From contig NZ_KB235938.1 of assembly GCF_000332315.1 (NCBI RefSeq), positions 145,028 to 203,551 on the forward strand: a stretch of 58,524 bases of DNA. Reading direction: 5' to 3'. Each line of letters starts with the position of its first letter. Position 1 is the stretch's first letter. Shown here piece after piece: positions 4,771 to 55,490 of this stretch. This stretch comes from Prochlorothrix hollandica PCC 9006 = CALU 1027. GTDB taxonomy: Bacteria; Cyanobacteriota; Cyanobacteriia; Prochlorotrichales; Prochlorotrichaceae. Under the pieces are notes generated by a model. It was not told the DNA's origin. It did no database searches and was given only the letters and a program-made list of their open reading frames with translations. The position numbers and the translations under genes are program-made.

Positions 4771-7700
4771 ATGGGGATCTGGCCTAGAAACATCGGGAGT
4801 AAACTGCCCAGGGATCAACACACTGGGGATATGCAGTCTGGCAATCAACCAATCGAGGATCTAGAAACCGGAGAGCAACAGTCCGGCGATCAAAAAACCG
4901 GCGATCAGAAAACCGGCGATCAACAGTTCAGCGATCAAAAAACCGGCGATCAACAGTTCAGCGATCAAAAAACCGGCGATCAGAAAACCGGCGATCAACA
5001 GTTCAGCGATCAAAAAACCGGCGATCAACAGTTCAGCGATCAAAAAACCGGCGATCAAAAAACTGGCGATCAACAGTCCGACGATCAAAAAACCGGCGAT
5101 CAACAGTTCAGCGATCAAAAAACCGGCGATCGCCTAATCAGCGATCAACAGTCCGACGATCAAAAAACCGGGTACCAACGATCCGGCGATCGCCTAATCA
5201 GCGATCAAAAAACTGAGTATCAACAGTCCGGCGATCGGCCAAGCAGCGATCACCAGTCCGGCGATCGCAAAACCGGGGATCAATGGCGTTTTAACAGACA
5301 CCTGATACGGCAATGGTGGGCTGGAGTGCGATCGCGCTGTGGGTTGCCGTCGGGATCTGGGGAGGCGGTGCGATCGACCCTAGGCGTGGGATTAGGGGCA
5401 GCGGCGGCGGTCACGGCAGTCAAGATCCTGGGGGAACTGTCCTGGGTGGGGATGGGACTGCTGTCGGGCTGGGAACTGGATGCCTATGACCTGATGGTGC
5501 GCCTGCGATCGCCCTTGCCCATCGACCCCAGGCTGGTGGTGGTGGGCATCACCGAAACCGATGTGGCCCGCTATGGCTGGCCCCTCAATGACGCAGTTTT
5601 AGGGGAAACCTTGGCCACCCTCCAAGACTATGAACCCCAGGTTATTGGCTTAGATCTCTATCGCAATATTCCCCAACCCCCCGGCAGCGATCGTCTGGCT
5701 GACCAATGGGCTGCTGACAATCTGTTTGGGATTTTGGAACTGGGGGAGGGTCAGGGCAATGGGGTGGATCCGCCCCCCTTGTTGCCTCCAGAACGGGCGG
5801 GGTTTAATGATCTGATTCTCGATCAAGATGGGGTGGTGCGTCGGTTTCTGGTGTTCGCCCAAAAGCAGAAGAAAACCTATTATTCCTTGGCATGGCAGGT
5901 GGCCTATGCCTATCTTCAGGGCCGGGACCCGGAATTTACGCTGGAGAACGAGGCTGGGGACTCCAATCGAATTGCTTGGGGTCGCAGTGTGCTGCAGCCC
6001 TTGGACCGGCGATCGGGGGGATATCAGCGGGAAGACGATCGGGGTTACCAACTCCTGTTGGATTACCGCAGTCCCAACGCAGCCGTGACGGTGCTTTCCC
6101 TGGCAACAGTTCTGGAGCGTGGGCCGGAGCTGGAAGCCCAATTGCGTCATAAAATCGTTCTTATTGGTAATTTAGCTCCCAGTACTAAGGATTTATTCTT
6201 TACCCCCTATACCGGTACGAGTTTTGCGCCGGTTGAGGGGATGGCCAACCCAGATCCCCCCCGGACTCGTCGCCCTGCCAATACAGATTTCTATGGTGTG
6301 ATGGTTCATGCCCAGATTGTCAGCTATTTGCTGGATTTGGCCCAAGGCGATCGCGGAACCCTAGGCTTTTGGCCGGAGTGGGCAGAGGTGCTGTGGATCG
6401 CCCTGTGGGGAGGGGTAGGGGCGGCAGTGAGTCGTCGCTGGAGCCATCCAGGGGCACTGCTGGCGGGGGCAGGTCTGGCGGTTGGGGGCTTGTGGGGGCT
6501 ACAGTATGGACTCTTTTTAGGGGGAGTGTGGGTGCCGGGGGTAGCTCCTAGCCTCAGTTTGGGCCTAGGGTTGGGGGGGATGGTGGTTTATCGCAACTAC
6601 CGCATTGAGCAGGAAAAGCAGCAACTGGCCCAACAAGCCCAGGCCCAGGAGGTGTCTATTGCCCTGTTGCAGCAGTTACTCCAGCATCAGTCTCCATCCC
6701 TTGCGGCCAGTCTTGATCCCACTCTTGCCGCTGATGGTGCTGAATCCTTCCGTTTTGGTTCACCCTCTTCGGATATTACCTTGAGGGGCAGCTCTCAGGG
6801 CGATAGCGGTCTTTTGGCATCATTTTCCCAGTGGCCTGAGCAGGGGTCTGATGATAGCCCCACCACCTTATCGGATCTGGCTGAGGGAGAGACCCAGTCC
6901 CTGGGGGAGCCACCAGCGGTAACCCCGATGACCCCATCCCAGCCCAGGGCTAAGCAGTCCCCACCTAAAGCTGGATTATTGGGGGGGCGCTATCAAATTC
7001 AATCGGTGTTAGGGGCAGGGGGATTTGCCATGACGTATTTGGCCCAGGATTGTCACCGTCCCAGTCGGCCCATCTGCGTTATTAAGCGCCTCTGTCCTCT
7101 GCGCCAGGATCCCAAATTTTTAGCGTTAGCCCAACGGCTATTTGATGACGAAGCTAGCATTCTAGAAATATTGGGTAAACACGATCAGATTCCTCAGCTT
7201 TTGGCCCATTTTAATCAAGATAATGAGTTTTATTTAGTACAGGAGTTTATTGCGGGCCATGACTTGAGGAAGGAGTTTAAGTTACAGCAGCAGTGGTCAG
7301 AAGCGGCGACGATCGATCTGTTGCGTAAACTATTGCCGGTGTTGGCATTTATCCACGATCGCCAGATTATCCACCGGGATCTCAAGCCCAGCAATGTCAT
7401 GCGTCGGGAGGATGGGAAGTTGGTGCTGATTGACTTTGGGACGGTGAAGCATTTACTGCCCTCAGAGGTTCAAGACCCCGGACCGGAAACCAAAACCATG
7501 GCGGTGGGAACTCCCGGCTATGGGGCACCGGAGCAGATGGCGGGTTATCCCCAACTCAACAGCGACCTCTATGCCCTGGGTATGATGGCTATCCAGGCAC
7601 TGACGGGGGTGCCGCCCCATCACCTGAAGGTCGATCCCCATCGGGGCGAGTTGAATTGGCGACCTTTGCTGGATCGATCGTTGCCCCTGATGCCCATTTT

Positions 7701-7779
7701 GGAGCGTCTCACCCATTTCAATTCCAGCGATCGCTACGCCTCCGCCGCTGCGGTTCTGCGGGACCTCGATCGCCTTTAA
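4771..7779 (+). CDS. CHASE2-Ser/Thr protein kinase with pentapeptide-repeat N-terminus
   Basis: The 1002-residue protein has three parts. Residues 15-169 are 31 five-residue repeats of the D-Q-x-x-G/S type. Residues ~224-515 are a CHASE2 extracytoplasmic sensor, followed by ~3 membrane helices (535-605). Residues ~740-1002 are a Hanks-type kinase: GAGGFAMTY loop, Lys772, HRD 868-870 with LKPSN, and DFG 888-890. All catalytic residues are present. A helix normally precedes CHASE2 (~200-222), which would place the repeats on the cytoplasmic side. The repeats are encoded by a 15-bp tandem repeat. A GTG start after them (near 5326 or 5371) is possible, so their translation is not certain. The gene is convergent with the next kinase. 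Confidence 0.87.
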   Translation: MGIWPRNIGSKLPRDQHTGDMQSGNQPIEDLETGEQQSGDQKTGDQKTGDQQFSDQKTGDQQFSDQKTGDQKTGDQQFSDQKTGDQQFSDQKTGDQKTGDQQSDDQKTGDQQFSDQKTGDRLISDQQSDDQKTGYQRSGDRLISDQKTEYQQSGDRPSSDHQSGDRKTGDQWRFNRHLIRQWWAGVRSRCGLPSGSGEAVRSTLGVGLGAAAAVTAVKILGELSWVGMGLLSGWELDAYDLMVRLRSPLPIDPRLVVVGITETDVARYGWPLNDAVLGETLATLQDYEPQVIGLDLYRNIPQPPGSDRLADQWAADNLFGILELGEGQGNGVDPPPLLPPERAGFNDLILDQDGVVRRFLVFAQKQKKTYYSLAWQVAYAYLQGRDPEFTLENEAGDSNRIAWGRSVLQPLDRRSGGYQREDDRGYQLLLDYRSPNAAVTVLSLATVLERGPELEAQLRHKIVLIGNLAPSTKDLFFTPYTGTSFAPVEGMANPDPPRTRRPANTDFYGVMVHAQIVSYLLDLAQGDRGTLGFWPEWAEVLWIALWGGVGAAVSRRWSHPGALLAGAGLAVGGLWGLQYGLFLGGVWVPGVAPSLSLGLGLGGMVVYRNYRIEQEKQQLAQQAQAQEVSIALLQQLLQHQSPSLAASLDPTLAADGAESFRFGSPSSDITLRGSSQGDSGLLASFSQWPEQGSDDSPTTLSDLAEGETQSLGEPPAVTPMTPSQPRAKQSPPKAGLLGGRYQIQSVLGAGGFAMTYLAQDCHRPSRPICVIKRLCPLRQDPKFLALAQRLFDDEASILEILGKHDQIPQLLAHFNQDNEFYLVQEFIAGHDLRKEFKLQQQWSEAATIDLLRKLLPVLAFIHDRQIIHRDLKPSNVMRREDGKLVLIDFGTVKHLLPSEVQDPGPETKTMAVGTPGYGAPEQMAGYPQLNSDLYALGMMAIQALTGVPPHHLKVDPHRGELNWRPLLDRSLPLMPILERLTHFNSSDRYASAAAVLRDLDRL
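4813..5277 (+). repeat. 15-bp tandem repeat, 31 units, coding
   Basis: The units alternate mainly between gatcaaaaaaccggc and gatcaacagttcagc, giving DQKTG and DQQFS. The first five units and the last ~8 are more degenerate, yet they keep the GAT codon and the 15-bp period. Being a multiple of three, the array stays open. Its reverse strand is also open and spells a hydrophobic shadow. Confidence 0.93.
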
Positions 7780-9526: not shown

Positions 9527-12500
9527 TTAGACCGTTGGGGAGTGGGATGACGGGTTGAACAGTTGTTTCCCTAGGGCGCTGGATTCGGGGTCTTGGTTTG
9601 GTAAGCTATCGTCTCGATCGCTGTGCCGATCGCTGTTTCGATCGCTGTGCCGATCGCCATTGCGATCGCCCTGCTGGCCATCATCGTTGCCATGGAGCAA
9701 CACATAAATACAGGGAATCAAAAACAGGGTTAGCACCGTTGCGAGGGAGAGTCCGGAAAACACCACCACCCCCAGGGGTTGCAGCAATTCCGAACCCTCC
9801 CCCAGCCCCAGGGCCAAGGGAAACAGCCCCAGCACCGTGGTAATGGTGGTCATCAAAATGGGCCGCAGTCGTTGGGGTGCCGCTTGGAGAATGGCAGAGG
9901 CTCGATCGCAGCCCTGGTCTTGGTAAATTTGGTTGGCCAATTCCAGCATAATAATGGCATTGTTGACCACAATCCCCACCAGCAGCACCGCCCCCACAAT
10001 GACCGTTGCTCCCACCGCCGTTTGCGTTAGATATAACCCCAAAATCCCCCCCGCTAAGGCCAAGGGGACGGTGAACAAAATCACCAGGGGATCGATCAGG
10101 GAGTTGTATTGCACCGCCATCACCACAAACACCAGAAACACCGCTAACCCCCCTAGGGTTCGTAGGGACTCCTGCAACTGGCGATTACTTTCCCCACTGG
10201 CACTGGGGAGGCGGGAAACCCCAGGGGGCAGATCCACATCGGCCAGTACTGTGTCAATTTCCGCCAGGGCTTGGCTGAGGCTGACTCCCTCCGCTAGGGT
10301 GCCATTGAGCAAAAACACTTGGCGCTGGTTAATGCGCTGAATTTCCCCTGGTGCTGTCCCCAAACCGATGGTGGCCACATCCCCCAGGCGCACCCGTCGC
10401 CCATCCCCCGTCAAGATTGGCACCTGTTCCAACTGATCCAGGGTTTGAACGGTACGAGGGGGGAGTTCTACCCGAATATCCACTAGGCGATCGCCCCGCT
10501 GTAATTGGGTTGGCACGGTGCCATTGAGGGCCGTTTGCAGGGCTTCCCCCAGGCTTTCCGCCGATAGCCCTAAATCCGCCACCCGTTCCCAGTCTGGGTT
10601 AATTTGAACTTCTTCCTGGGGTTCTGCGGCATCGGGGCGAAAGGTGGATAAGGTTGCCTTTTCCCGGAGAATACCGAGAATTTGGCGACCAGACAGGGCC
10701 AGGGCTTGCTGATCCGTCCCCTGGAGCACTAAATCAATGTCGCCCCGCACCGGTGAGTTACTGAGAATCAGACCCCGCACTGTTTCGGGCCGCAGTTGCA
10801 CCAAGGTGTTCACTAAGGGTAACTGGGAAAATTGGGCATTGAGGCGATCGACAAAATCCCCCACTACAGCACCGGGCTGGAGGGTCACCGTCATGCTGCC
10901 CTGGAGGCTGTTTTCGCTGGTGGACGATCCAAAGAGAAATCCCCCAGCAGTGCTAAAAACATAGGTGGTTTCCGGCTGTTTCAGGACTTCCTGCTCCAAC
11001 AGGTTCATAACCTGCACATTATCCTGGAGGGTGGTACCGGGGGGGAAGCGCACAAAGGCGGTGGCTTGGCCCGTATTGATGCGGGGCAGAATTTCCTGGG
11101 GTAACTGGCCCCCCATCCATAGGCTGCTGCCCCCAAACACCAGCACCACCACCGCAATCACCCCTAGGCGATGGCCCACCATCCAGGTCAGGACTTGGCC
11201 ATAGCGCCGGGTGAGTCCTTCCAGGCGCTGCTGGAACCAGTGGAGGGGTCCCCAGTTCTGGAGTCCACTGTTGCGGCGGGGATCCAGAAGCCGGGAAGCC
11301 AGGGCAGGCACCACCGTCAAGGCCAGCAGTAACGACACGGCAATGGCAAAGCTAATGGTGAGGATCAGTTCATTGAAAATCAGGGAAATAAAGCCCCCCA
11401 CCATCAGAAAGGGCACGACGGCCACTAGGTTGGTAGTGGTGGAGGCCAGCAGGGCTGACTCTAATTCCTGACTACTGGCTTCAGTTTGGCGAACAATATG
11501 CCCCCAGGATAAGTGGGGGACGGTTTTAGGCGTGTTATGACCGTTAGGGGAGTGATGGTGAGGCGAGTGATGGTGAGGCGAGTTATGGTGAGGCGAGTTA
11601 TGGTGAGGTGAGTTATGGTGATTCTGCTGGAACTGACCATTCAGATCGCTATTCAGATCGCTATTCAGATCGCTATTCAGATCGCTATCCAAATTCTGAC
11701 CCACATCCTCAGGATGGCCATTCCTAACCTCAAGGGTCTGCGGATCAGGGCTGGAATGCTCCCCTGATCCAGGAGTTGGGTTCTGAGATGGAGTATTGGC
11801 TTGGTATGGAGTATTGGCTTGGTATGGAGCATTGGCTTGGTATTGCAGGGCCGATCGCTGTAACCCCTTGGCGATATTTTCCAACATAACAATGGAGTTA
11901 TCTACCACAATTCCCACTCCCAAAGCCAGCCCTCCCAAACTAAAGGTATTGAGGGAAATACCCGCTAAACCCATGAACATGAGTGCCCCCAAGGTGGCCA
12001 GGGGAATGGCTAACACAATAATCAAGGTTTGGCGAAAGGAACCCAGAAACAGGAAAACCGCCAAGGCAGCGAGAAGGGAGCCACTGAGTCCGGCGATCGC
12101 CACATTGCGGATCGAATTGCGGATAAAGCGGGACTCATCCAGGGTGGCAGTCATCACCATTTCCGGGGGAATCAGGCCCGACTGCCGTAGGGTTTCCAGT
12201 TTGGCCTTGATGCCATCCACCACCACCACGGAGTTGGCATCGGGTTGTTTCTGAATGCTCACCTTAACGGCTGGTGAGCCATTGAGACTGACAAAAATCC
12301 GTTGTTCCTGGGCACCATCGGTCACATTGGCCACATCCCGCAGGTAAATCTGGGCAGGGGTCCGGTTGGCTGCGCTGGAGTTGGTGTTTGCGGGTAAATT
12401 GAGGGGTAGATTCCGAATTTCATCGGCGTTTTGGAACCGTCCCACCACACGGCTGAGGCTTTCGCGATCGCCCCCCTCAATGCGGCCCCCCGACAGATCC

Positions 12501-13150
12501 TGATTCCGTTCCGCCAGGGCATCCAGCACATCGCCGATGTCCAGTTTGCGGGCTTGGAGTCGTTGCAAGTCCAGATCCACCTGAATTTCTTCTTCCACTC
12601 CCCCCGAAATGTCCACATTGGCCACCCCTGGCACCCGCAACAGTTCCCGCCCTAACTCTTGATCTGCAAAAATTCGCAGATCCACTGGGGTTAAGCTGGG
12701 GGAGGTGAGGGCCAGTTCATAGACCGGTAACTGGGAGGGATCGAACTTAAAGAGACGGGGTTGATCGAGGCTGGCGGGCAAGCTGTCCCGTGCCCGGTTG
12801 AGGGTGGCGGTGGCATCGTTGAGGGCTTGGTCAATGTCTCCCCCCGGCTCGAAAAACAGATCTAAGCTAATGCGCCCTTCCCGGGTTTGGGAAAACACCT
12901 GTACCACGCCTTCTGTGGCTGCTAGGGCTTCCTCCAGGGGTCGAGTAATTTCATCCACCGCCACTTGGGGGGAAATGCCGGGGGCTGTCGCCCGCAAACC
13001 AATGCGCGGGTAGGTGATGGAGGGCAGCAGATCCACGGGCAATTGTAAGGTGACAAACAATCCCAAAACAATGACCGTGAGGGTCAACATCAGGGTGCCG
13101 ATGTGGCGGCGAATGGCTATGGTGCTGAGGCTGGGGAACGGGGCAGTCAT
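9527..13150 (-). CDS. RND (HAE1/AcrB-type) efflux permease with repeat-built insert
   Basis: The 1207-residue inner-membrane pump subunit starts with helix 1 (about 15-36) and QLPVDLLPSITYPRI. The first porter domains lie at ~40-345. TM4 has GVGIVVDNSIVMLEN with the proton-relay Asp417, and the second repeat has QEILPRINTGQA and TM10-12 at the end. Residues ~434-556 are an unusual cytoplasmic insert between TM4 and TM5, where relatives have ~30 residues. It is made of YQANTP x3, SDLN x4 and a His-rich HHNSP block. The C-tail has DRHS/DRNS repeats. The partner may be the adaptor at 25.6 kb. A drug or metal substrate is not predictable. Confidence 0.92.
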   Translation of the reverse strand: MTAPFPSLSTIAIRRHIGTLMLTLTVIVLGLFVTLQLPVDLLPSITYPRIGLRATAPGISPQVAVDEITRPLEEALAATEGVVQVFSQTREGRISLDLFFEPGGDIDQALNDATATLNRARDSLPASLDQPRLFKFDPSQLPVYELALTSPSLTPVDLRIFADQELGRELLRVPGVANVDISGGVEEEIQVDLDLQRLQARKLDIGDVLDALAERNQDLSGGRIEGGDRESLSRVVGRFQNADEIRNLPLNLPANTNSSAANRTPAQIYLRDVANVTDGAQEQRIFVSLNGSPAVKVSIQKQPDANSVVVVDGIKAKLETLRQSGLIPPEMVMTATLDESRFIRNSIRNVAIAGLSGSLLAALAVFLFLGSFRQTLIIVLAIPLATLGALMFMGLAGISLNTFSLGGLALGVGIVVDNSIVMLENIAKGLQRSALQYQANAPYQANTPYQANTPSQNPTPGSGEHSSPDPQTLEVRNGHPEDVGQNLDSDLNSDLNSDLNSDLNGQFQQNHHNSPHHNSPHHNSPHHHSPHHHSPNGHNTPKTVPHLSWGHIVRQTEASSQELESALLASTTTNLVAVVPFLMVGGFISLIFNELILTISFAIAVSLLLALTVVPALASRLLDPRRNSGLQNWGPLHWFQQRLEGLTRRYGQVLTWMVGHRLGVIAVVVLVFGGSSLWMGGQLPQEILPRINTGQATAFVRFPPGTTLQDNVQVMNLLEQEVLKQPETTYVFSTAGGFLFGSSTSENSLQGSMTVTLQPGAVVGDFVDRLNAQFSQLPLVNTLVQLRPETVRGLILSNSPVRGDIDLVLQGTDQQALALSGRQILGILREKATLSTFRPDAAEPQEEVQINPDWERVADLGLSAESLGEALQTALNGTVPTQLQRGDRLVDIRVELPPRTVQTLDQLEQVPILTGDGRRVRLGDVATIGLGTAPGEIQRINQRQVFLLNGTLAEGVSLSQALAEIDTVLADVDLPPGVSRLPSASGESNRQLQESLRTLGGLAVFLVFVVMAVQYNSLIDPLVILFTVPLALAGGILGLYLTQTAVGATVIVGAVLLVGIVVNNAIIMLELANQIYQDQGCDRASAILQAAPQRLRPILMTTITTVLGLFPLALGLGEGSELLQPLGVVVFSGLSLATVLTLFLIPCIYVLLHGNDDGQQGDRNGDRHSDRNSDRHSDRDDSLPNQDPESSALGKQLFNPSSHSPTV
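9604..9668 (-). repeat. 12-bp tandem repeat, ~5 units, coding (RND C-tail)
   Basis: The unit cgatcgctgtgc and variants encode the DRHS/DRNS tail of the RND permease. Each unit contains a CGATCG core. The unit length keeps the frame. Confidence 0.85.
11550..11844 (-). repeat. Three tandem-repeat blocks (15, 12 and 18 bp), coding (RND insert)
   Basis: At 11550-11620 a 15-bp unit (gagttatggtgaggc) occurs about five times and encodes HHNSP-like His-rich repeats. At 11641-11689 a 12-bp unit (cagatcgctatt) occurs four times and encodes SDLN. At 11791-11844 an 18-bp unit (gagtattggcttggtatg) occurs three times and encodes YQANTP. All are multiples of three and lie in one protein loop. Confidence 0.9.
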
Positions 13151-25589: not shown

Positions 25590-26882
25590 TTAACCTTCCC
25601 CTGGGTTTTCACTGAGGAGACTCCGTTGCACCGCTTGCCCGGTTTTGAGGGGGGTACCGCTGCGGACCACATAGACATCCCCCACCCCCAGCCCTTGCAA
25701 CACCTCCACCTGGCCATTGAGGGATCGCCCCAACCGTACCGATCGCCCCTCCACCAGGGTTTCCCCTTCCGCCGAGGCTTGGGGTAACACCACAAAGATT
25801 TCTGCGGTATTGCCTACATCCGTGGAACTCTCCCCCACCTCTAGGGCACTGTTCGGCACCACCACCCGTTCTTGGTTGCCCCCCGGCAACGTCACCCGCG
25901 CCAACAGTCCCGCCCCCACTGCGCCTTCGGGATTGGGCATTCGGATTTCGATGGGGATCAACTGGGCTGTGGCATCGGCGATCGGGGCAATACGGTTGAT
26001 CAAGCCGGGAAGGGTAATGCCGGGGAATGCATCCAGGGTAATGCTCACCGTTTGGCCAGGGCGGACTTGGCCCAGGTCTAGATCCGACACGTCTACCTGC
26101 ACTTGGATTTCACTGAAATCCCCTAAGGTCAATACAGCTTGGCCCGGTTGTACCAAATTCCCTGGATCTACCAGCCGTTCCATCACCAAGCCATCCTGGG
26201 GGGCCACTAACTGGCCATAGCGTAGCCGTTCTTGAGCATCCTTGACCAGGGCTTCCTGGGCCGTCACCTGGGCTGCGGCCACTTGAATGCCTCGCTGGCG
26301 GGTGCGGCTCCGTTCCTGGAGCGCTTTGAGGGTTTGCTCCAGGGTGTGGCGGTTGGTTTCCCCCTGTTCAGCGGCCTGTTGGGAAACAGCCCCATCCTTG
26401 GCCAGATTTTGCAACCGCTGGGCATCAAGGCTGGCTTGCTCCAGTTGGCCTTGGCTTTGGGTAATTTCGGCCTGGACTTCCGCCCATTCCGTTTCGGCTT
26501 CCGCCTGGGACAGTTGTTGGCTCACCAATTCAGCTTGGGCATTGGCCAGGTTGGCCCGCAGGAGGGTGTCGTTTAATTGCCCCAGGACTTGACCCGCCTT
26601 GACCCTATCCCCCACATCCACGGTTAAATCCAATAATTGCCCTTCCACTTGGGATCGCAAGCTAATGCGCTGGCGGGGTTCCGTGATGCCGGTGTAATTC
26701 AGGTCTGCTTCCAGGATCTTGGCAGCGGCGATCGCCACATCCACCGTGATCGGTCCGCTGCTTTGGCCCGGTCTCCCGCCACCGCTGGCGGCTGAATTCC
26801 CTGTCTGCTCGTCCTTGGGGTTTGTCCCGCAACCCACCATTAATCCCCACCCCAATAGCCCCAACCCGAGCCACCGGCCCAT
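25590..26882 (-). CDS. RND efflux periplasmic adaptor (MFP/HlyD), lipoprotein
   Basis: ATG 26882 gives 430 residues with a good lipoprotein signal (MGRWLGLGLLGWGLMVGC). An in-frame extension to 27053 would put that signal 57 residues inside, so I reject it. Domain order: lipoyl half (SLRSQVEGQLLDLTVDVGDRVKAGQ), a long coiled-coil hairpin (about residues 115-225), second lipoyl half (GQLVAPQDGLVMERLVDPGNLVQPGQ), beta-barrel and membrane-proximal domain. It links an RND permease to an outer-membrane channel. The only RND permease in the window is 12 kb away. Confidence 0.9.
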   Translation of the reverse strand: MGRWLGLGLLGWGLMVGCGTNPKDEQTGNSAASGGGRPGQSSGPITVDVAIAAAKILEADLNYTGITEPRQRISLRSQVEGQLLDLTVDVGDRVKAGQVLGQLNDTLLRANLANAQAELVSQQLSQAEAETEWAEVQAEITQSQGQLEQASLDAQRLQNLAKDGAVSQQAAEQGETNRHTLEQTLKALQERSRTRQRGIQVAAAQVTAQEALVKDAQERLRYGQLVAPQDGLVMERLVDPGNLVQPGQAVLTLGDFSEIQVQVDVSDLDLGQVRPGQTVSITLDAFPGITLPGLINRIAPIADATAQLIPIEIRMPNPEGAVGAGLLARVTLPGGNQERVVVPNSALEVGESSTDVGNTAEIFVVLPQASAEGETLVEGRSVRLGRSLNGQVEVLQGLGVGDVYVVRSGTPLKTGQAVQRSLLSENPGEG

Positions 26883-27027
26883 GATCCCCAGGGGACGATG
26901 GCGCTGGCTTTGGATCCGGCGATCGGAGTACAACGGGGATGGCAATGGCTGGCGATCGGCGTGCAACATGGCTAACAGTCCTTCAAGGTTTAAGGGTGAT
27001 GCTGAGGGGTCTTGGTCCCAGAGTGAG

Positions 27028-27074
27028 TTAAGCGTGAGCCAAGCGTGAGTCAAGCGTGAGCCAAGCGTGAGCCA
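27028..27074. repeat. 11-bp tandem repeat, ~4 units
   Basis: The unit aagcgtgagcc is repeated with one variant, about 150 bp upstream of the adaptor lipoprotein start. Confidence 0.8.
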
Positions 27075-38054: not shown

Positions 38055-38151
38055 GTTTTCAAAGCTTACCGCTGACAGCGGGACAAGATTCACGGGACAG
38101 TGGGGTGCTCCGCGCCCCACTGTCCGGGCTTAAGTTGATACCCGTTTTCAA
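38055..38151. mobile_element. 81-bp MITE (family 2), copy c, inverse
   Basis: The element is 38063-38143, inverse to copies a, b and d. GTTTTCAA flanks both sides. It ends CTTAAGTTGATACCC. The right flank leads into the 13-bp array. Confidence 0.88.
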
Positions 38152-38400
38152 TACTTTGGTTCATTGCTCTGGTTCATTACTCTGGTTCATTACTCTGGTT
38201 CATTACTCTGGTTCATTACTCTGGTTCATTACTCTGGTTCATTGCTCTGGTTCAATACTCTGGTTCAATAGGGCACCTCGATTAATTCAAATTGTCGTCC
38301 AGTGACCCAGGCAAGAATCAGGGTTGTGGCGGGTGGCTCCGCCCAACCCAATTAACCGAGGTTGCCAATACTCTGGTTCATTACTCTGCTTCAATTCATT
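38147..38400 (+). repeat. 13-bp tandem repeat split by a MITE, upstream of gor
   Basis: The unit tactctggttcat occurs about nine times up to 38270 and resumes at 38367-38400. The interruption is the family-3 MITE (38271-38366), flanked by AATA. The array therefore existed before the insertion. It ends 18 bp before the gor start. Confidence 0.92.
38267..38370 (+). mobile_element. 96-bp MITE (family 3), copy 2, nested in a tandem array
   Basis: The element is 38271-38366, with ends GGGCACCTCGATTAA and AACCGAGGTTGCC and AATA on both sides. The empty site can be read directly as the uninterrupted 13-bp array. This confirms mobility and the 4-bp duplication. Confidence 0.92.
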
Positions 38401-42174: not shown

Positions 42175-42340
42175 ATTGCTGTGACAACCGTGCTGTGACA
42201 ACCGTGCTGTGACAACCGCGCTGTGACAACCGTGCTGTGACAACCCCGCTGTGACAACCCCGCTGTGACAATCGTGCTGTGATAATCGCGCTGTGACAAC
42301 CGCGCTGTGACAACCGCGCTGTGACAACCCCGCTGCGAAA
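42175..42340 (+). repeat. 14-bp tandem repeat, ~12 units, upstream of nadD
   Basis: The unit gctgtgacaaccgt/c fills most of the pncB-nadD gap. Its reverse strand is open and looks like a protein of VTARLSQHGCHS repeats, but it is a shadow. Confidence 0.93.
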
Positions 42341-42410
42341 CCGTTTAGAGATCGCGGTTAAGGTCATAGAGTCCCCCTGCCCCCCGATCCTCCCTGCCCC
42401 CCCCTAGACC

Positions 42411-55106: not shown

Positions 55107-55490
55107 TCTAGCGTAGTAGTAGCGACTTCGGTCCCTCAGGTTTGTAGTAGCGACTTCAGTCCCTCAGGTTTGTAGTAGCGACTTCAGTCCCTCAGGTTTG
55201 TAGTAGCGACTTCAGTCGCTCTGACCGATAGCTCTGGAGGGATAACGACTGAAGTCGTTACTACGAACGAGGGTAGCGACTTCAGTCGCTCTGACCGATG
55301 GCTCTGGGGGGATAACGACTGAAGTCGTTACTACGAACGAGGGCGGCGATTTTAGTCGCTCTGACCGATGGCTCTGGGGGGATAACGACTGAAGTCGTTA
55401 CTACGAACGAGGGTAGAGATTTCAGTCGCTCTGGTTTGTCGCTTCCTGGAGGGGAACGACTGAAGTCGTTATTACGAACGTAACTGTGAG
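55107..55490. repeat. 28-bp and ~70-bp tandem repeats with GACTTCAGTC palindromes
   Basis: About four units of 28 bp (starting tagtagcgacttcagtccct) are followed by about four of ~70 bp. Each of the latter holds GCGACTTCAGTCGC and, further on, AACGACTGAAGTCGTT. Both motifs are palindromes, so the long units fold in several ways. The remaining gap to 55612 is without a gene. Confidence 0.88.

Follow-up and report, generated by a model that had tools for sequence, protein, structure and literature searches.

The closest described relatives of the pump analysed here are the RND permeases of the AcrB/MexB/MdtB type, with which it has in common the overall fold, the relay Asp in TM4 and the porter domains. 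ZnT zinc transporters carry a His-rich cytoplasmic loop between TM4 and TM5. In ZIP zinc transporters, according to the accessible part of the source, His clusters stand in a cytoplasmic loop between two membrane helices (TMD3-TMD4), as they do in our pump (PMC7391401); the ZIP family is however unrelated, and nothing about the pump indicates that it transports metal or that its His are conserved. A further point of reference is the in-frame protein repeat, described in the available part of another paper as made by duplication and enriched in disorder-promoting residues (PMC7230257). The loop discussed below is likewise predicted to be disordered, but it differs from the repeats of disordered protein regions in belonging to a membrane pump, in lying beside the proton-relay helix, and in being unusually rich in His. 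A literature search, judged by titles and the beginnings of abstracts, returned no His-rich loop in an RND pump, which does not prove that there is none. A search for tandem repeats in Prochlorothrix found no pertinent paper, and the accessible part of the Prochlorothrix genome paper names repeats only for CRISPR and annotation (PMC5069947).

We analysed a window, by which we mean a whole stretch of 58,524 nucleotides from Prochlorothrix hollandica, in which an open reading frame at 9527..13150 on the minus strand encodes an RND (AcrB/AcrD/AcrF-type) efflux permease of 1207 aa. The protein matched Pfam ACR_tran (PF00873) in two stretches with 960.5 bits, against a cut-off of 28. In the whole-genome search, positions 2-420 and 421-1021 of this model aligned on either side of the enlarged loop, both halves of the model, which we required for membership in the family, being present. 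The pump stayed under the cut-offs of all the NCBIfam permease models listed for it, the best among them being RND_permease_2 (NF033617), with 645.9 bits against a cut-off of 1250. Membership in the heavy-metal RND group (CusA/CzcA, TIGR00914) was rejected, with 413.5 bits against a cut-off of 701.45. An AlphaFold model of residues 1-1160, built with 38 aligned sequences (mean pLDDT 73.4), found its top structural matches in AcrB-type pumps, with TM-scores by query length of about 0.73-0.76, and CusA came only at rank 19. By its sequence, the pump belongs among the RND permeases of broad multidrug type. A long TM4-TM5 loop is absent from all three of the genome's other full-length RND pumps. 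In one paralogous RND pump of the same genome (L174:6201-9470, minus strand) the second half contains a long additional segment, which appears LysM-like by eye and gave no Pfam match to LysM at E 0.001.

TM4 with the proton-relay Asp was located by alignment to solved pumps at residues 402-426 (11873..11947, minus strand; motif GLALGVGIVVDNSIVMLEN), and in the model it forms a helix from residue 402 to 440. The TM4 motif VVDNSIVMLENI is separated from the conserved ESALLAS that precedes TM5 by 137 residues, 17 of which are His. In the alignment with the solved pump 6ows, residues 431 and 557 of our pump correspond to residues 421 and 432; therefore 125 residues here (432-556; 11483..11857, minus strand) stand where 6ows has 10. 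The original prediction had described an insertion of about 120 residues at 11550-11844, in the cytoplasmic loop between the proton-relay helix and TM5. The position between the two helices was confirmed by the alignment, and the size was close to what we measured, the loop exceeding that of 6ows by about 115 residues and that of the modal cyanobacterial homologue (63/128) by about 105. The coordinates located the feature correctly but understated its extent, since the enlarged loop is wider, at about 11483-11857.

The presence of three different tandem arrays in this one loop, also predicted, was verified with TRF, and all three are on the minus strand and in the frame of the pump. They consist of 3.1 copies of an 18-nt unit read as QANTPY (11788..11843), 4.2 copies of a 12-nt unit read as NSDL (11639..11688), and 5.1 copies of a 15-nt unit read as HHNSP or HHHSP (11546..11621), and together with non-repeat sequence they make the loop a mosaic. 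The three periods are all multiples of three and the 1207-aa frame stays open. A fourth array, read as DRNSDRHSDR, occupies the C-terminal tail of the pump (9614..9669, minus strand). Fifteen of the 17 loop His fall in a block at residues 511-551 (11498..11620, minus strand), where they are grouped in HH and HHH clusters; 12 of them belong to the 15-nt array and three are at positions 538, 546 and 551, while the remaining two lie upstream, at 465 and 479. The window contains 53 TRF rows with a score of at least 50, whereas 40 resamplings of it under a first-order Markov model gave 0.25 on average and at most 2 (best score 64), and the loop arrays are far beyond chance. That their copy number, or even their presence, is an error of assembly could be argued from the fact that the loop sequence rests on one assembly of the order. 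The arrays are however short (50-76 nt, within one read length), partly imperfect and frame-keeping, and dozens of similar ones exist in the window, so that we find an error of this kind scarcely credible. In the AlphaFold model the TM4 helix is followed by coil at residues 441-548 and by the next helix at 549-584, with a pLDDT of about 30-38 across residues 451-540. The prediction is thus of a disordered appendage in the cytoplasm, low pLDDT being no proof of disorder.

The frequency of such arrays in the genome was assessed with TRF on 60 stretches totalling 1.188 Mb, or about one fifth of the genome (10,400 of the 1,188,000 bases being N). The G+C content of this sample was 53.7%, beside 54.56% published for the 5.5-Mb genome of Prochlorothrix hollandica (PMC5069947), and few genes of phycobilisome families were seen in the genome. 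We found 721 arrays, or 61 per 100 kb. Across 80 loci of relatives the density was 26 per 100 kb, although five of these loci exceeded the genome of the window. ORFs were defined in this census as the longest open frames of at least 150 aa (at least 120 aa for the density comparison with relatives), not as gene-finder calls. The period was divisible by three in 236 of 262 coding arrays versus 157 of 408 intergenic ones (Fisher p 6e-44), which is the bias expected if arrays arise everywhere and are then purged from genes wherever they shift the frame. Peptides encoded by arrays were more hydrophilic (mean hydropathy -0.81) than segments elsewhere in their ORFs (-0.22). In-frame coding arrays of three or more copies numbered 130 and were spread over 101 ORFs, and the pump is one of seven among these with three or more arrays. 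The pump loop is not unusual for its genome. HIP1 palindromes were considered as a general seed of the arrays and rejected, CGATCG occurring in only 6 of the 219 array units of the first 340 kb. The N-terminal part (4858-5283) of the CHASE2/Ser-Thr kinase gene at 4771-7779 consists of about 14 in-frame copies of a 30-nt unit (GDQKTGDQ...), an array much larger than those of the pump. Long arrays whose period is not divisible by three are found at 38147-38267 (13-nt unit, nine copies), 42178-42343 (14-nt unit, 12 copies) and 55203-55480 (70-nt unit, four copies).

The original prediction had also called for an alignment with homologues, expecting a short loop in most pumps. We started from 141 pump-family loci, of which 137 remained after removal of the partial L002 and L125 and of two exact duplicates, 129 after removal of L111 and of near-identical rows (at least 99.5%), and 128 after removal of one row with less than 50% identity. 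Within this set the expectation held: the TM4-TM5 loop is short in 112 of the 128 homologues, most of which have about 31 residues, and long in 16, with 63 of the 128 sharing exactly one span. Its length also varies more widely than that of any other internal segment (SD 14.5), with residues 253-265 coming next (SD 9.0). The latter segment, located in the porter domain, is a second and smaller site of length variation, of 0-37 residues among the 128 homologues, and contains no His in any of them. On a tree made with FastTree only, from which the loop columns were left out and in which L001 sits on a long branch, the long-loop label changed 11 times, with 10 changes forced by the starred branches, a count that is blind to gain versus loss. 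In three homologues (L094, L092 and L027) the proton-relay motif VVDNS is replaced by AVDCS or AIDTS, with the Asp retained and the Asn after it lost.

Cyanobacterial homologues that are 60-68% identical to our pump (e.g. L031, L056 and L033) present the same protein with a variable loop, which in several is long and repeat-built. The loop of L032 (Symploca sp. SIO2C1) consists of 34 copies of a 7-nt unit read as FPIPNSQ repeats, and that of L049, from its relative SIO1C2, combines 8-, 9-, 7- and 14-nt arrays. L031 has 5.6 copies of an 18-nt unit read as NGHNGS, its relative L123 has a rearranged version with differing arrays, and L130 has NG repeats. Not every long loop is visibly repeat-built, since four of the 15 others (L020, L004, L065 and L133) had no TRF array; among the visible sources of loop length, repeat expansion is the main but not the sole one. 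The TM4-TM5 site is mildly special in this respect. What marks in-frame tandem-repeat expansion, namely periods that keep the frame together with predicted disorder and length variability in homologues, was found in this loop. The same recurrence, by differing sequences in 16 of 128 homologues, would fit a selected flexible spacer or docking segment, in which length and hydrophilicity and not His are maintained, for example for partner binding or for the tuning of turnover. Against such selection, a short loop suffices in 112 homologues, of which 63 have the same exact span, and the loop arrays resemble arrays elsewhere in the genome, which leaves this explanation very improbable in our judgement.

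The context of the gene was considered as a clue to the substrate of the pump. Most cyanobacterial homologues combine a loop of about 31 residues with a gene for an HlyD-type adaptor adjoining the pump, unlike the situation here. Upstream ORFs were tested in seven of the eight listed loci of relatives (all but L032), and in six of the seven the ORF directly upstream of the pump encoded an HlyD/CusB-type adaptor; the seventh, in L049, was a histidine kinase. The best match in our genome to the adaptor that adjoins the pump in relatives is an HlyD/CusB-type protein at 25590..27053 on the minus strand (Pfam HlyD_D23; over 25608-26801 it is 47% identical to the adaptor of L056). It is on the same strand as the pump, about 12.4 kb away, with intervening genes on both strands. 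Because this best match does not adjoin the pump, the context gave no substrate and was set aside as a clue. The neighbours of the pump are kinase, PqiA-like and phytase-like genes, and among those tested no metal gene was recognised.

The original prediction had left the choice between a tolerated accident and a metal-sensing or metal-buffering appendage, in which the His block at 511-551 would bind Zn, Ni, Co or Cu and gate or feed the pump. The clustering of 15 His in HH and HHH motifs would speak for the latter, as would N/G/H repeats in the loops of L031, L123, L033 and L113. Precedent comes from bacterial metal-binding proteins, in which low-complexity regions rich in His are over-represented according to the part of that study available to us (PMC6821194), and from the ZIP loop, which binds metal as far as the accessible part of its source goes (PMC7391401). 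By analogy with these two cases, metal affinity of the loop in vitro is plausible. We asked how surprising the His content is. The 15-nt array of the pump is the most His-rich of the 130 in-frame coding arrays sampled (46%, the next having 26%) and the only one of these with at least 40% His. When the repeat units were read in all open frames, at least 40% His was reached in 2 of 375 intergenic-unit frames and in 9 of 621 coding-unit frames, the latter including the pump array. This gives an expectation of 0.7-1.9 His-rich arrays among the 130, with a probability of 0.50-0.85 for at least one. With one observed, the His content of the pump array is unsurprising. The 40% threshold was chosen after the pump array had been seen, which would favour surprise, yet no surprise was found. 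A scan for odd sequence will pick out the most striking array of a genome. Composition by itself does not point to a function.

Homologues point in the same direction. His conservation, taken as the mark of a metal-binding regulatory loop, was not found: only 8 of the 128 homologues have three or more His in the loop, a label that changes six times on the tree. Two of the longest loops, in L020 (120 residues) and L032 (117 residues), have no His at all. In the long loops of other homologues His accounts for 31 of 1125 residues (2.76%), compared with 27 of 3463 (0.78%) in short loops, and much of it sits in N/G/H low-complexity sequence. Because His is commoner in long loops, and because at least three are present in those eight homologues, there may be a weak shared leaning to His. 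Such a leaning could be read as convergence on His, in the genome of the window and in L031/L123, L113, L033, L035 and L094, of a repeat-recruiting hotspot that became a metal- or pH-responsive cytoplasmic appendage by the proton-relay helix; we consider this highly improbable. Without conservation, metal context or metal-pump membership (the CusA/CzcA score being under the cut-off), the metal-sensor reading is not supported. A His content that matches chance at the array density of this genome, long loops free of His, the short loops of 112 homologues and the kinase, PqiA-like and phytase-like neighbours all argue against it, and a metal-sensing or metal-buffering role is in our view quite unlikely.

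The accident half of the original alternative is well supported, being backed by the genome-wide arrays and their in-frame bias, by an insertion site that is recurrently used and changeable in homologues, and by predicted disorder. The loop is very probably a set of tandem repeats that arose by slippage or recombination and that an otherwise ordinary RND exporter tolerates in a cytoplasmic loop which is permissive and disordered. Duplication of short units occurs at many places in the genome, and inside genes few arrays remain unless their period is a multiple of three; those that do remain lie mostly in hydrophilic stretches. The TM4-TM5 loop is one such stretch and has grown repeatedly, by different units, in different cyanobacteria. 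Slippage is the generating mechanism that we infer. The His content would be accidental, set by the particular 15-nt unit that expanded and by its reading frame, and His probably has no selected role.

The loop is thus most likely the ordinary product of a repeat-prone genome, at a place where the pump family can afford variation. It provides a calibration case, since a repeat-rich genome is expected to hold some striking low-complexity block by chance. For the family, the natural variation among homologues charts a loop of an RND pump that accommodates insertions of over 100 residues next to the proton-relay helix in several lineages. Such a chart can guide the placement of tags or sensors and show which regions of these pumps are free to change.
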